From the NCBI GenBank assembly GCA_028700185.1, contig JAQVTF010000011.1, positions 1-40,746 of the forward strand: 40,746 nucleotides of DNA. The letters run 5' to 3'. The first letter of the stretch is position 1; every line of letters begins with the position of its first letter. A program made the position numbers and the translations under genes. The notes beneath the pieces were generated by a model. The model worked only from the letters and a program-made list of their open reading frames with translations, had not been told where the DNA came from and did not search any database. Shown in pieces: positions 12,516 to 33,800 of this stretch. The DNA comes from Desulfobacteraceae bacterium (GTDB lineage: Bacteria > Desulfobacterota > Desulfobacteria > Desulfobacterales > UBA2174).

Positions 12516-13388
12516 ATGGATGCCAGTTTTTCAGCGAAGGATCAAGGGGACCGGGTTGACGCGGGCGGTTGCCAGAACGGTATTCCGGTGCCGGGCGGGG
12601 TCTACCTGTGCCAGGTCAGCGAGACTATTTCCTGCGGGGCCTGCTGCGGGCTCTACAACGTGGCCGATGCGTCCCGGCCGGCCCTGGAAGCGATGCTGAG
12701 CCGGCGCACGGAGCGCTTTTCCCGTCTGCCGCGCCAGATGGACGCCATTCTGTCCTTCGGCGAGCGGACCGCCGCCGCGGAGGGACATCCGCGGCCTTAC
12801 CCGGATTTCCACCACTGCCCCTACCTCGGGCTCATCGGTGAGAAGGGTACCCGGGTGGGCTGTCTGCTGCATCCCCTGGCCGACGGTAACCACGGGGTGG
12901 ATTTTCGCGGGTTGAGTTATTACGGCGGCATGGCCTGCCGCATCTACTTCTGCCCGGCGACCCACCGTCTGCCCGGACGCTACAAGGCCGTTCTGCGGCG
13001 CGTCTTCGACAACTGGTACGACTACGGGCTCGTGGTTACCGAGCGGCACCTGGTGGCGGCTCTGATGGCCGAAGTGGAGCGTCGTCTGGGCCGGCCACTG
13101 GACCCCGAGGGGCTGAGCCGGCGGCCGATGCATACCGCGGCCCTGGCAACCCTGTTGACCATCAAACAGGACTGGCCGTTTCGGGATCCGATCCAGGGCC
13201 ACCTCTGCCACGACCTGTTCCAGGACGACGGCAGCGGCCGGGCCCCGGCGGGCAGCGGGCCACGGGATTTTTACACCGTCGTTTTCCAGGAACTCGAATC
13301 GGTTCTGGACAACGATGAACGCGTCGCCGCGGCCCGGGCAATGGTGGATCGACGGATCGCGGCGACCGTCAGCACCCTGGCGGCTTGA
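12516..13388 (+). CDS. YkgJ-type cysteine cluster-like protein, unknown function
   Basis: [52 protein letters not shown]; clustered conserved-type Cys. Confidence 0.7.
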
Positions 13389-13630: not shown

Positions 13631-13934
13631 GGCATTCCTCCGACGGATGGCGGATTCTGGCAGGAAAGGACGGGTTGGCCCGGGTTTTTCAAAAAGTATG
13701 AAAAAAACAAACGGGCCATCGCTCCAGCGCTAGGGGGGAAGACGGCAAACAAGAGAGGGACGGCATCTGGAGCGGCCGGGAGACGGCGGCCGCGGGTGGA
13801 TTGCTCCTGCCGAAGACCGTTCCTGATCCGGTGCGGCAGACACCGCCGGTATCGGCGAATGTCGCTCCGGTTCTCATGGCCCTTGAGATCTGTTTGCCTG
13901 AGCCCCCTGTCCGACGCAGAGTAATGGCCCGTTG

Positions 13935-14112
13935 GAGTGAGGCAGGTTTTCTGACTTCCGGATCAAGCGTACCGGTTGCGCCTTCCCGGTAAATGGCACC
14001 AGTGGCCCAAAGCAACCGTCGTCCCCGGTCACAGCGGCGGGACCGCTCCCGATTTTCACGGGATTCCCCTTGCGCCGACCCGAGGCCGGGGCAATCCTTG
14101 GCGGAACCTCGT
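13935..14112 (-). ncRNA. Cobalamin riboswitch
   Basis: The - strand reads GAGGTTCC...AAGGGGAATCCCGTGAAAATCGGGAGCGGTCCCGCCGCTGTGACCGGGGACGACGG...CACTGG...GGGAAGGC...GTCAGAAAACCTGCC. These are the conserved core, P6 region and B12-box-type end of cobalamin riboswitches. Boundaries are approximate. Confidence 0.92.
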
Positions 14113-14117
14113 CGACT

Positions 14118-14146
14118 AATAAACCCGATTTTGCACCAACGGTCAA
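14118..14146 (-). promoter_or_regulatory. Sigma70-like promoter for the cobalamin riboswitch transcript
   Basis: TTGACC (14146-14141), 17-nt spacer, TTTATT (14123-14118), immediately upstream of the riboswitch on the - strand. Confidence 0.55.
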
Positions 14147-14219: not shown

Positions 14220-15542
14220 TCATTCCCCCGGCCGATGGATCGGTCGGGGCTCGCGGTCTTCCCGTTCACTCATGGGCATGTACTCCGTCTCGGGGGGGCC
14301 GATGTAAATCTGCCGGGGCCGAGACAGGCGCCAGTTGGGATCATCCATGCTCTCTTTCCACTGGGCGATCCAGCCCGGCAACCGGCCGATGGCGAACATG
14401 ACGGTGAACATGTTGGTGGGGATGCCCATGGCGCGCAGCACGATACCGCTGTAAAAGTCCACGTTGGGATACAGGTGATGGTCGACGAAGAAGCTGTCGG
14501 AAAGGGCACGCGTTTCCAGCTCCCGGGCGATCTCCATCAGGGGATCATCCAGGCGCAGCTTGTCCAGGAGACGATCACAGACCTTTTTCATGATTCGCGC
14601 CCGGGGATCGAAGGTTTTGTAAACCCGATGGCCGAAGCCCATGAGACGGAAGGGATCCGATTTGTCCTTGGCCCGCTGGATGATCTGGTCGATGCTCTCG
14701 TGACCGTGGTGGATCTTCTTGAGCATCTCGATCACGGCCTGATTGGCACCGCCGTGGAGCGGTCCCCACAAGGCGGCGATGCCCGCCGAAACCGCCGCGT
14801 AGAGATTGACGCGGCCGCTGCCCACCATGCGCACGGTGGAGGTGGAACAATTCTGCTCGTGATCGGCGTGCAGAATCCAGAAGACGTTGAGGGCATCGAC
14901 CATGTCCTGGTCGATGACATACGGCCGCACCGGGGTGTCGAACATCATGTTGAGGAAGTTGGCGCAGTACGACAGGTCCGGCCGCGGGTAAACCACCTTG
15001 TGGCCACGGCTGATCTTGTAGGACAGGGCCGCCATGGTGCGCACCTTGCTCACCAGGCGCGTGACGGTCATGTCGATCTCTTCCTCGATGGTCTGCAGCT
15101 CGGGATAGAAGCTGCGCAGGGCGTTGACCATCGCCGAAAGGATTCCCATGGGATGCGACAGGCGCGGGAAGGTGGAGTAGAAACTGCGCATGTCTTCGTG
15201 CACGAGGCTGTGGTCGTTGAGCAGAACCGAAAAGCGCGTCAGCTCGCGCCGTGACGGCAGGTGGCCGTGGATCAGCAGGTAGGCGGTTTCCACGAAGCTG
15301 GACTGCTCGGCGAGCTGTTCCACCGGAATGCCGCGGTAACGCAAAATCCCCCGCTCCCCGTCCATGAAAGTGACGCTGGAGGTGCAGCTACCGGTGTTGG
15401 CGTAGCCCGAATCGAGGGTGATCAGCCCCGTTTTCTGTCTCAGTTGACTGATATCGAAACCTTTTTCCCCTTCCGTGCCGGTCACGAGGGGAAGCTCGAA
15501 GGTCTGTCCCTGGTAAACCAGTTTCACCGTCTCTTGGCTCAT
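14220..15542 (-). CDS. gltA: Citrate synthase
   Basis: DGERGILRYRGIPVEQLAEQS, LHADHEQNCSTSTVRMVGS, LWGPLHGGANQAVIEML, RLMGFGHRVYKTFDPRA, NVDFYSGIVL. Start at MSQETVKL. Confidence 0.96.
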   Translation of the reverse strand: MSQETVKLVYQGQTFELPLVTGTEGEKGFDISQLRQKTGLITLDSGYANTGSCTSSVTFMDGERGILRYRGIPVEQLAEQSSFVETAYLLIHGHLPSRRELTRFSVLLNDHSLVHEDMRSFYSTFPRLSHPMGILSAMVNALRSFYPELQTIEEEIDMTVTRLVSKVRTMAALSYKISRGHKVVYPRPDLSYCANFLNMMFDTPVRPYVIDQDMVDALNVFWILHADHEQNCSTSTVRMVGSGRVNLYAAVSAGIAALWGPLHGGANQAVIEMLKKIHHGHESIDQIIQRAKDKSDPFRLMGFGHRVYKTFDPRARIMKKVCDRLLDKLRLDDPLMEIARELETRALSDSFFVDHHLYPNVDFYSGIVLRAMGIPTNMFTVMFAIGRLPGWIAQWKESMDDPNWRLSRPRQIYIGPPETEYMPMSEREDREPRPIHRPGE

Positions 15543-15613
15543 GGCGCGACTCTCCTCTTTGGCATGAAGCTGGTGTTCGTCCATGAATGGTCTTTTCCCG
15601 GGATTTCAGCGTT

Positions 15614-30837: not shown

Positions 30838-33800
30838 ATGATCCATCTTGCCACCCTGATCCAGGAGCCGGCCCCGGGCCAACGCCTGATCCGTTTTGCC
30901 GGTGATGTGCTCGCCCTGCGCCTGAGACTGCCGGAGCCCATGCCCGGTACGGCCTGGATTCGGACCAACGTCGGCCGTGCGGCGATTCGCCGCGGTGAAA
31001 TCATCGCCTCGGTGGAGGCCCACCGCCCCTTTTCCGGTCACGACTGGACCGACGTGGTGATGCGCCCGCTGGACGAGCTGACCTTCGAGGCGCGCTTGCC
31101 CCTGGTGGAGATCGGCCAGTACTGCGCCAAGTGCTTCTTTCTGCCCGAAGGCAGCGATCAGCCCCTCTGGCCCCCGGGCGACAATGTGGCCATCAAGGTC
31201 GAGCCGGCCGACACCTGCTGCGCCAACATCATCTACAACGCCTTCGTGCGGCAGTTCGGCCCCAACCGGGACGGCAGGGGCAGCGGCGGGGATCCCGAGG
31301 CCATCGCCGCCCTGGACCGATGCGGGTATACGGTAATTCCTCCCAGCGGGACCTTTCGCGACCTCATCGCCCACCTCGATTTTATCTTCGACCAACTCGG
31401 CTGCCGCTACGTTCAACTTCTGCCGATCCACCGCGTTCCCACCACCTATGCCCGCATGGGCCGTTTCGGCAGCCCTTACGCGGCCTTGAGTTTCACCGGC
31501 GTCGATCCGGCACTGGCGGTCTTCGACCCGTCGGCCACCCCCATGGAACAGTTTCTTGAGCTGGCGGACGCCATCCACGCCCGGGAGGGGAAGCTGATCC
31601 TGGACATCGCCATCAACCACACCGGCTGGGCGGCCCGTCTGCATCACGAGCATCCCGAGTGGCTGGTGCGTGACCCGGGAGGCCGGATCGAGACCCCCGG
31701 GGCCTGGGGGGTGGTCTGGGCCGATCTGACCCGGCTGGACTACCGGCGCCGGGACTTGTGGCGCTACATGGCCGATGTCTTTCTGACCTGGTGCCGCCGA
31801 GGGGTGGACGGGTTTCGCTGCGACGCCGGTTACATGGTGCCGCTGGAGGCTTGGCGCTACATCATCGCCGCCGTGCGGTTGCAGTTTCCCTACACGCTCT
31901 TTTTTCTCGAGGGGCTCGGCGGCAAGGTGTCGGTGACCCGCGCCCTGCTGCAGGAGGCCAATTTCAACTGGGCCTATTCGGAACTGTTTCAGAACTACGA
32001 CCGGGGGCAGATCGAGTACTACCTGCCGCCGGCCATCGAGATCGCCGAGGGGGATGGGGCCCTGGTGCACTTTGCCGAAACCCATGACAACAACCGCCTG
32101 GCGGCCCGGTCCCACGAATTCGCCCGTCTGCGCACCGCTCTGTGCGCCCTGTGCGCCCACCAGGGGGCCTTCGCTTTCACCAACGGCGTCGAGTGGCTCG
32201 CCACCGAGAAGATCGACGTGCACGGCGCCCCCAGTCTCAACTGGGGGGCTTCGCCGAATCTGGTGGACCATCTGGCCCGCCTACACACCCTGCTGCGCCA
32301 CCATCCGGTGTTCCACGACCGGGTTGCCCAGCGGCTCGTTCAGGCCGGGGTGGGAAACCATGTGGTGATCGAACGGCGCCATGGACCTTCCGGCCGACGG
32401 CTGTGGATCACGGCCAACCTCGACGATCGCCAGCCCGTGATCGCCCTGTGGCGGTGCGACGCCGATCCCGGCAACTGGATCGACCTGCTGGCCGGCGAGG
32501 CCACAACGGTGGAGCGGGTGGACGGTCTGCTTGCCTGTCACCTGGCCCCGGGTCAGGTGCGCTGTCTCAGCCGGCATCCCGAAGATTTGAACCTGCTCAG
32601 CGGCCAGGGCCACCGGACGCCGCCCCGGGCCCTGGTCCAACGCCTGCGCGCCGTGGTGCTGCGGGTGTACCGCTATTTTTACGGCGATGGCGATCTGGCC
32701 GATTTCGATCCAGAAAGTCAAGCGGTGGCGCTTTGCAAGGATCCGGAAGCCTTCTGCGCCCGCTTGGATCCCGCCCGTCCACCGGTGGCGGCGGTGGTGG
32801 CGTGGAACTGGCCCGGGGATGTCCGGCGTCAGGTGATGGTGCCTCCGGGGCACTTTCTCCTGGTCCGTGCCGCCCACCGTTTCCGGGTGCGGCTGGTGGA
32901 AGACGAGCGAACCCTTGCCATGGAAGATGCCCTGCCGTTGACCGATGGGGGGTTTTTCGCCTTGTTGAAGCCGCCGGCACCGGTGGCCGACTGGACCGAG
33001 CGGTTCTTGGCGCTGGCGGTGTACGAGAACGGCGATGGGGCGACAAGGGCCCATGGGCCGCTGTTGTTTTTGCCCCCGGCGGGCACCGGTCGGCCCAAGC
33101 GGATCTTCACGCGGCCAGATGCGAAAAACCATCTGCTGGCGCTTCTGACCAACGGCCGTGGCGGCATGGCCCGGGCCCATGCGGCCTGGGGACAACTTGG
33201 CAGCAAGTACGACGCCCTGTTGGCCGCCAATCTCGATCCCGCCGTACCGGTGGACCGCTGGATGCTGTTGACGCGCTGCCGGGCCTGGATCGTCTTTCAG
33301 GGATACTCGACCCCGGTGGTCCGCGATGGGCTGGAGCGTTTCTTCCTCGATGCCCAAGGCCGTCCCTGCTGGCATTTCACCCTGCCGGCGGGCCAGGGGC
33401 AACACCTGGAGCTGGCGGTGCGCATGGAGATGCCCGACGGGCAGAACGCCCTGCACATCACCTTTCAACGGGCGGCGGCGGACCAACCCGATCGCTTGGC
33501 TGATGACCGCCCCGTGCGGCTGATCCTGCGACCGGACATTGAGGATCGCAGCTTTCACGATCTCACCAAGGCCTACACCGGTCCGGAAAACCGTTGGCCC
33601 GTTGCGGTGGCCGCTTTCCCCGACGGATTCCGGTTCGCCCCGGACCCGTCGCGGATCCTTTCCGTGCGTCTGCCGGGCGGGATTTTTCAACAGGAGCCGG
33701 AATGGCATTACATGGTGCACCGGCCGCTGGAGGCGGAAAGAGGAATGGACCCGGATTCAGACCTGTTCAGCCCGGGCTATTTCAGCATCCCGCTGTCCGG

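Follow-up and report, generated by a model that had tools for sequence, protein, structure and literature searches.

A candidate B12-sparing small RNA behind a cobalamin riboswitch in one order of Desulfobacterota

To our knowledge, riboswitches that act through a regulatory RNA are few, and the standard examples are two B12 cases in Firmicutes. Rli55 of Listeria and EutX of Enterococcus are RNAs gated by AdoCbl riboswitches, and they sequester EutV (PMC8079631, PMC5821096). AspocR, also of Listeria, is a cobalamin-riboswitch-gated antisense RNA to pocR (PMC8079631). In a 2023 study, antisense-acting riboswitches of such type are called "exceptional" (PMC9943018).

The RNA family described here shares the plan of Rli55 and EutX: an aptamer, a terminator that in those systems is stabilised by B12 and that is lacking in the window's own genus, and a free-standing two-hairpin non-coding RNA, which in those systems is made only without B12. 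Rli55 and EutX shut off a B12-dependent pathway, and the same outcome is proposed here. They belong to Firmicutes, however, while the hosts here are Desulfobacterota of sulfate-reducing type, and they bind EutV via ANTAR dual hairpins, whereas the hairpins here are not ANTAR-like and their loops match the start of an mRNA. With AspocR the likeness is B12 gating and a proposed translation block through base pairing, but AspocR is a long antisense RNA of its own neighbour, whereas here two short loops would act on an unlinked gene. Comparison of genomes establishes that the promoter-like element, the aptamer and the predicted two-hairpin RNA are conserved together, as one unit, in many families of the order, often without a gene behind it. 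The reading we favour, somewhat above an even chance, is that of a stand-alone trans-acting small RNA gated by the cobalamin riboswitch, which would spare B12 by repressing acsC. The wider proposal, that many families in a single Desulfobacterota order have a B12-sparing RNA which shuts off AcsC in trans and whose loops co-evolve with their target, we hold to be evenly poised.

The unit in the window and in its congeners

As listed in Table 1, an RF00174 aptamer was found by cmscan on the minus strand of the window (the whole 40.7-kb stretch of DNA analysed). The match covers the full model, exceeds the gathering threshold of 31.5 bits and is the sole Rfam match across the window. The complete-looking cobalamin riboswitch of an earlier note on this DNA is, judged by the covariance model, real. 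The promoter placed before it in that note stood in part: the -35 box and the 17-nt spacing are kept in both congeners compared, G001 (Desulfobacteraceae UBA2174) and G002 (HyVt-13), but the -10 box is weak and a generic scan called no promoter. Distant carriers have TTGACA at the position equivalent to the -35 box of the window. The only other cobalamin riboswitch in the window's genome (G000) is ordinary, with the aptamer followed by a terminator and cobT. In ordinary RF00174 riboswitches the regulated product is a coding gene, whereas here it would be an RNA, without a regulated coding gene; the aptamer is alike, and the antiterminator/terminator cassette is shared with most carriers. It was also rightly noted before that no B12 transport or synthesis gene follows. 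The next minus-strand ORF encodes an Amphi-Trp protein and starts about 294-304 nt past the aptamer.

Table 1. Features of the riboswitch locus, in positions of the window
Feature	Position	Strand	Basis and remarks
Citrate synthase gene, upstream	14220..15584	-	PF00285, E 5e-132; conserved neighbour in G001 and G002
Promoter-like element	-35 TTGACC 14146-14141, 17 nt, -10 TTTATT 14123-14118	-	Sequence
Cobalamin aptamer	14124..13924	-	RF00174, model 1-189, 100.8 bits, E 3e-24 (cmscan)
Structured small-RNA domain (predicted)	13710..13933	-	88-90% identity in three species; fold z -4.0
Closing helix, 5' strand AACGGGCCAU	13933-13924	-	Pairs with 13719-13710
Hairpin UCUCA-AGGGCCA-UGAGA	13872..13888	-	Identical in three species
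hpA	13841..13857; loop AUACCGG 13852-13846	-	Stem varies, pairing kept; loop conserved across families
hpB, outer stem and bulge	13757..13824; bulge GGCAGGAG 13811-13804	-	
hpB, inner stem and terminal loop	13793-13787/13778-13772; loop CCGUCUCC 13786-13779	-	
Closing helix, 3' strand AUGGCCCGUU, then UGUUUUUUUC (UGUUUUUUU)	13700..13719; helix strand 13719-13710	-	Sequence and fold
Amphi-Trp gene, 75 aa	13403..13630	-	PF20068, E 4e-8; neighbour, not target

The 246 nt that begin just inside the 3' edge of the aptamer form one closed fold (-107.7 kcal/mol, z -4.0). The whole unit of promoter, aptamer and domain is present in G001 and G002. Pairwise identity among the three species reaches 88-90% for the domain, 87-91% for the aptamer and 88-89% for the final 600 nt of the citrate synthase gene, and falls in the spacers to 47-53% before the unit and 28-56% after it. 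An Rfam search of the domain at a permissive threshold matched the aptamer alone. By sequence and modelled fold, AUGGCCCGUU with the U-run at ~13701 is probably the 3' end of the RNA or its terminator; this U-run is weaker in G002 and missing in G001. The loop GGGCC of the hairpin at 13872..13888 can pair by eye with GGUCC of aptamer L5, and the hairpin is a candidate P13/L13. Pairing of the GGCAGG bulge with CCUGCC of the aptamer, or a pseudoknot between GGAG of the bulge and CUCC of the loop, is left as a possibility because GGCAGG is lost in some families.

Several readings of this region give way under the comparison. If the riboswitch and the domain were the leader of the amphi-Trp gene, that gene would be B12-regulated, as the earlier note had considered, and it is indeed the next gene on the same strand in G000 and G001. 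In G002, however, riboswitch and RNA are kept while amphi-Trp is absent behind them and an IS element takes its place, so that the linkage seen in G001 is missing at that locus, and in G000 the gene is preceded by a stable helix with a U-run behind it; such a leader is highly improbable. Note that the transposase gene in G002 (HTH_Tnp_1; L061:3723-4364) lies on the opposite strand just behind the RNA, which is intact. A relic leader of a lost B12 gene is scarcely credible. An SD-like AAGGG and an AUG inside the hairpin at 13888-13872 and the missing B12 gene downstream would suit a relic, but the domain holds 224 nt at the identity given above while the spacers have diverged, and its hairpins recur in other families. 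A small ORF within the domain, earlier called unconvincing, is indeed non-coding; it starts at 13877 and not at 13874. In G002 frameshifts interrupt it, and the substitutions (2/4/5 by codon position) follow no codon pattern. Since the domain is conserved unlike the spacers, amphi-Trp is absent from this place in G002 and the ORF is frameshifted there, the domain is taken to be neither a relic, nor an amphi-Trp leader, nor a small protein. An antisense RNA to the YkgJ-like gene, which ends at 13388, is not supported either: the RNA of the window seems to stop at ~13701, short of that gene, and other carriers do not have the gene as a common neighbour.

Recurrence of the two-hairpin RNA across the order

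Outside the genus, DNA similarity gave chance-level pieces only, and covariance models were therefore built. The domain model returned distant weak matches, two of which sit directly 3' of cobalamin aptamers. After iteration a common plan appeared: aptamer, antiterminator/terminator with CUGGGUGCAGCCCUUC, hpA and hpB. Across the family hpA keeps the loop AUACCGG, and its stem varies in sequence with pairing kept. hpB is a longer hairpin, with the bulge GGCAGGAG in many members and a terminal loop containing GUCUCC. This loop is altered in four genomes, reading UAUCUCC in G192 and G028, ACUCUCC in G056 and CGCCUCC in G054; all three RNA copies of G192 have AUCUCC instead of GUCUCC.

Counts were made on 77 distinct cobalamin aptamers, each with 300 nt or more of sequence on its 3' side. 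Of these, 16 are followed by hpA, compared with 0.65 in shuffles, and hpA and hpB follow in order in 12, compared with 0 in shuffles. All matches of model R3 above 40 bits (13/13) lie on the same strand 3' of an aptamer, and a more relaxed search turned up G056 as well as two more copies in G192, all of them likewise 3' of an aptamer. The carriers are spread over at least 14 families within the order; a draw of 247 genomes across the phylum gave no convincing case outside the order. A plain pattern, GGCAGGRG-N-YCTCCCGG, returned mostly noise, and its aptamer-linked matches alone held. The terminator between aptamer and RNA is present in most carrier families and absent in the window's genus, which is, on its sequence, an outlier among the carriers.

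The next gene lies on the opposite strand in G030, G033, G045, G047 and G028, and in G312 a stretch of ~1 kb separates the RNA from the next substantial gene on its strand. The hpB of G045 is a perfect intrinsic terminator, AAAAAUCCCCGGC-UGAACGUCUCCU-GCCGGGGAUUUUUUUUU, in which the CGUCUCC loop is kept. Since several genomes have no same-strand gene behind the RNA, there is a strong case for reading the locus as a riboswitch-gated small RNA, and as in Rli55 and EutX a non-coding RNA stands 3' of the aptamer, independent of the downstream gene. The riboswitch-controlled sRNA, one of the options in the earlier note, is thus the one that gained ground, with a structured non-coding domain conserved across families and several copies lacking a gene behind. 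The hairpins could instead be a cis-acting leader, either an mRNA stability element or a second aptamer, for whatever gene follows. That would agree with cbiK downstream on the same strand in G057 and G019, with a 90-aa YRT-repeat gene downstream in G009, G015 and G056, and with btuFCD ~600 nt downstream in G004. It is unlikely in view of the six genomes just named, of the IS behind the RNA in G002, and of downstream genes that are unrelated between families. The ~90-aa protein with repeated DGKxYRT motifs occurs after the RNA in three families (L092:5197-5481 in G015, L214 in G009 and L229 in G056), and a Pfam search of the G015 protein gave no match.

Returning to the small RNA, the direction of its gating may be read from ordinary loci. 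A hairpin-less version of the aptamer-terminator cassette precedes, in L015, L021 and L027, genes which we take to be for B12 synthesis or transport. The cassette therefore most likely acts as an OFF switch, so that the RNA would be made at low B12.

acsC as the predicted target

An mRNA complementary to both loops was sought with the pattern GGAGAC-N0-30-CCGGTAT in 16 carrier genomes, which gave about 110 matches. Among these, one and the same site, GGAGAC-n-ATGGCATTAACCGGTAT, is shared by 7 of the 16 genomes, each belonging to a different family; the exact double site is missing in the other nine. It consists of the Shine-Dalgarno sequence and the first codons of acsC, with the hpA site at codons 4-6. 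The gene was identified by NF003195 and by PDB 4djd chain C, the corrinoid/iron-sulfur protein large subunit (E 5e-120), and it sits between what are presumably acsB and an acsE-like gene. The window's genus is represented here by G001, in parts totalling ~0.8 Mb. Its acsC reads AAGGAGACGAAGATGGCTTTAACCGGGATTC, with 7 bp to the hpB loop and one mismatch in the hpA site, and is the best double-site start of 8331 ATG-ORFs in the ~0.8 Mb read. In G009 all ten bases of the hpB loop can pair with AGGAGACAGA. By itself, GGAGAC is no rarity near starts (21/602). Within the reach of the searches made, acsC was not found in G000, nor in a blind sample of G028. Complementarity to the start of translation, the mark of a base-pairing sRNA, is thus conserved at acsC in 7/16 carriers, with one mismatch in G001, and acsC is a good candidate for the target of the small RNA.

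The start of acsC may also be conserved for its own reasons, independent of the RNA. Codons 2-5 (GCA TTA ACC GGT) are identical in 6/6 complete acsC genes, all from carriers, while among the other amino-acid-invariant codons in the first 110 codons of the six genes only 7/72 are identical. Note that codons 4-6 are part of the search pattern (4-5 of those compared), which leaves codons 2-3 as the bias-free ones. The bases flanking the loops show a better fit to their own target than to permuted targets (p 0.048 for hpB, p 0.23 for hpA and p 0.027 jointly), which hints weakly at covariation with acsC.

An ANTAR hairpin pair has hexaloops whose first base is A and whose fourth is G. The loops here are AUACCGG (7 nt) and one of 8-15 nt containing UCUCC. 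A B12-gated RNA that sequesters a protein has its precedent in EutX and Rli55 and would share their architecture of aptamer, terminator and two hairpins with conserved loops (PMC5821096, PMC8079631). Such sequestration is quite unlikely here, given the departure from the ANTAR hexaloop pair and the complementarity of both loops to one mRNA start in 7 genomes.

For the base-pairing RNA, the following mechanism is proposed. As other members suggest, transcription would halt at the terminator behind the aptamer when B12 is bound, and the small RNA would be produced when B12 is low. The terminator is gone in the window's genus, and the gating step there must therefore differ, perhaps relying on the terminal long-range helix and the U-run. 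By complementarity, the hpB loop would pair with GGAGAC of the acsC Shine-Dalgarno sequence and the hpA loop with codons 4-6. This pairing would cover the ribosome site and block translation of acsC, which encodes the large subunit of the Wood-Ljungdahl corrinoid iron-sulfur protein, and a cell with scarce B12 would cease making a major B12-containing protein. The loop matches suggest, in short, that AcsC synthesis stops when B12 runs short.

The sparing logic is that of RyhB-type metal-sparing sRNAs (iron in the case of RyhB), by which abundant proteins needing a cofactor are not made when it is scarce. Production of RyhB is under Fur control, whereas here the sensor would be a riboswitch carried by the transcript itself. 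In titles and abstracts of the literature searched, no paper was found that connects a small RNA with the corrinoid iron-sulfur protein along these lines. If true, a regulatory-RNA riboswitch would exist outside Firmicutes, in many families, and its predicted target in trans would itself be a carrier of the vitamin being sensed. The orphan cobalamin riboswitches of these bacteria would be explained, and B12 supply would be tied directly to the carbon-fixing/acetyl-CoA-oxidising pathway in environmental anaerobes. Variants of the hpB loop would then predict variants of the Shine-Dalgarno sequence.

Elements resembling or adjoining the RNA

A model of the hpB core (R2) also matches a dispersed repeat without an aptamer, which was set aside as a different thing sharing the hairpin loop. 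The repeat is ~200 nt long, has CACAGAG/CTCTGTG-type arms and was found at L128-L131, L133-L136, L150, L153 and L154 (G015, G198, G176 and G527). It has two hairpins with complementary loops, GGGAGACG and CGUCUCCC, and one of the hairpins resembles the hpB tip. The repeat may be a mobile element, from which hpB could have arisen. Within the window, R3 also matches positions 32777-32876 (+), but weakly (20 bits, E 0.02) and away from any aptamer; this is probably a chance match. Just 3' of hpB in L016, L197, L206 and L211 there is a further conserved structured element, GCCGGG..CCGYAAGG..UGGGAUG..UGAC..CCCGGC, which has no Rfam match above gathering. In G192:C40 (L114/L232) a riboswitch with its hpA/hpB RNA is followed in tandem by a second complete cobalamin riboswitch.
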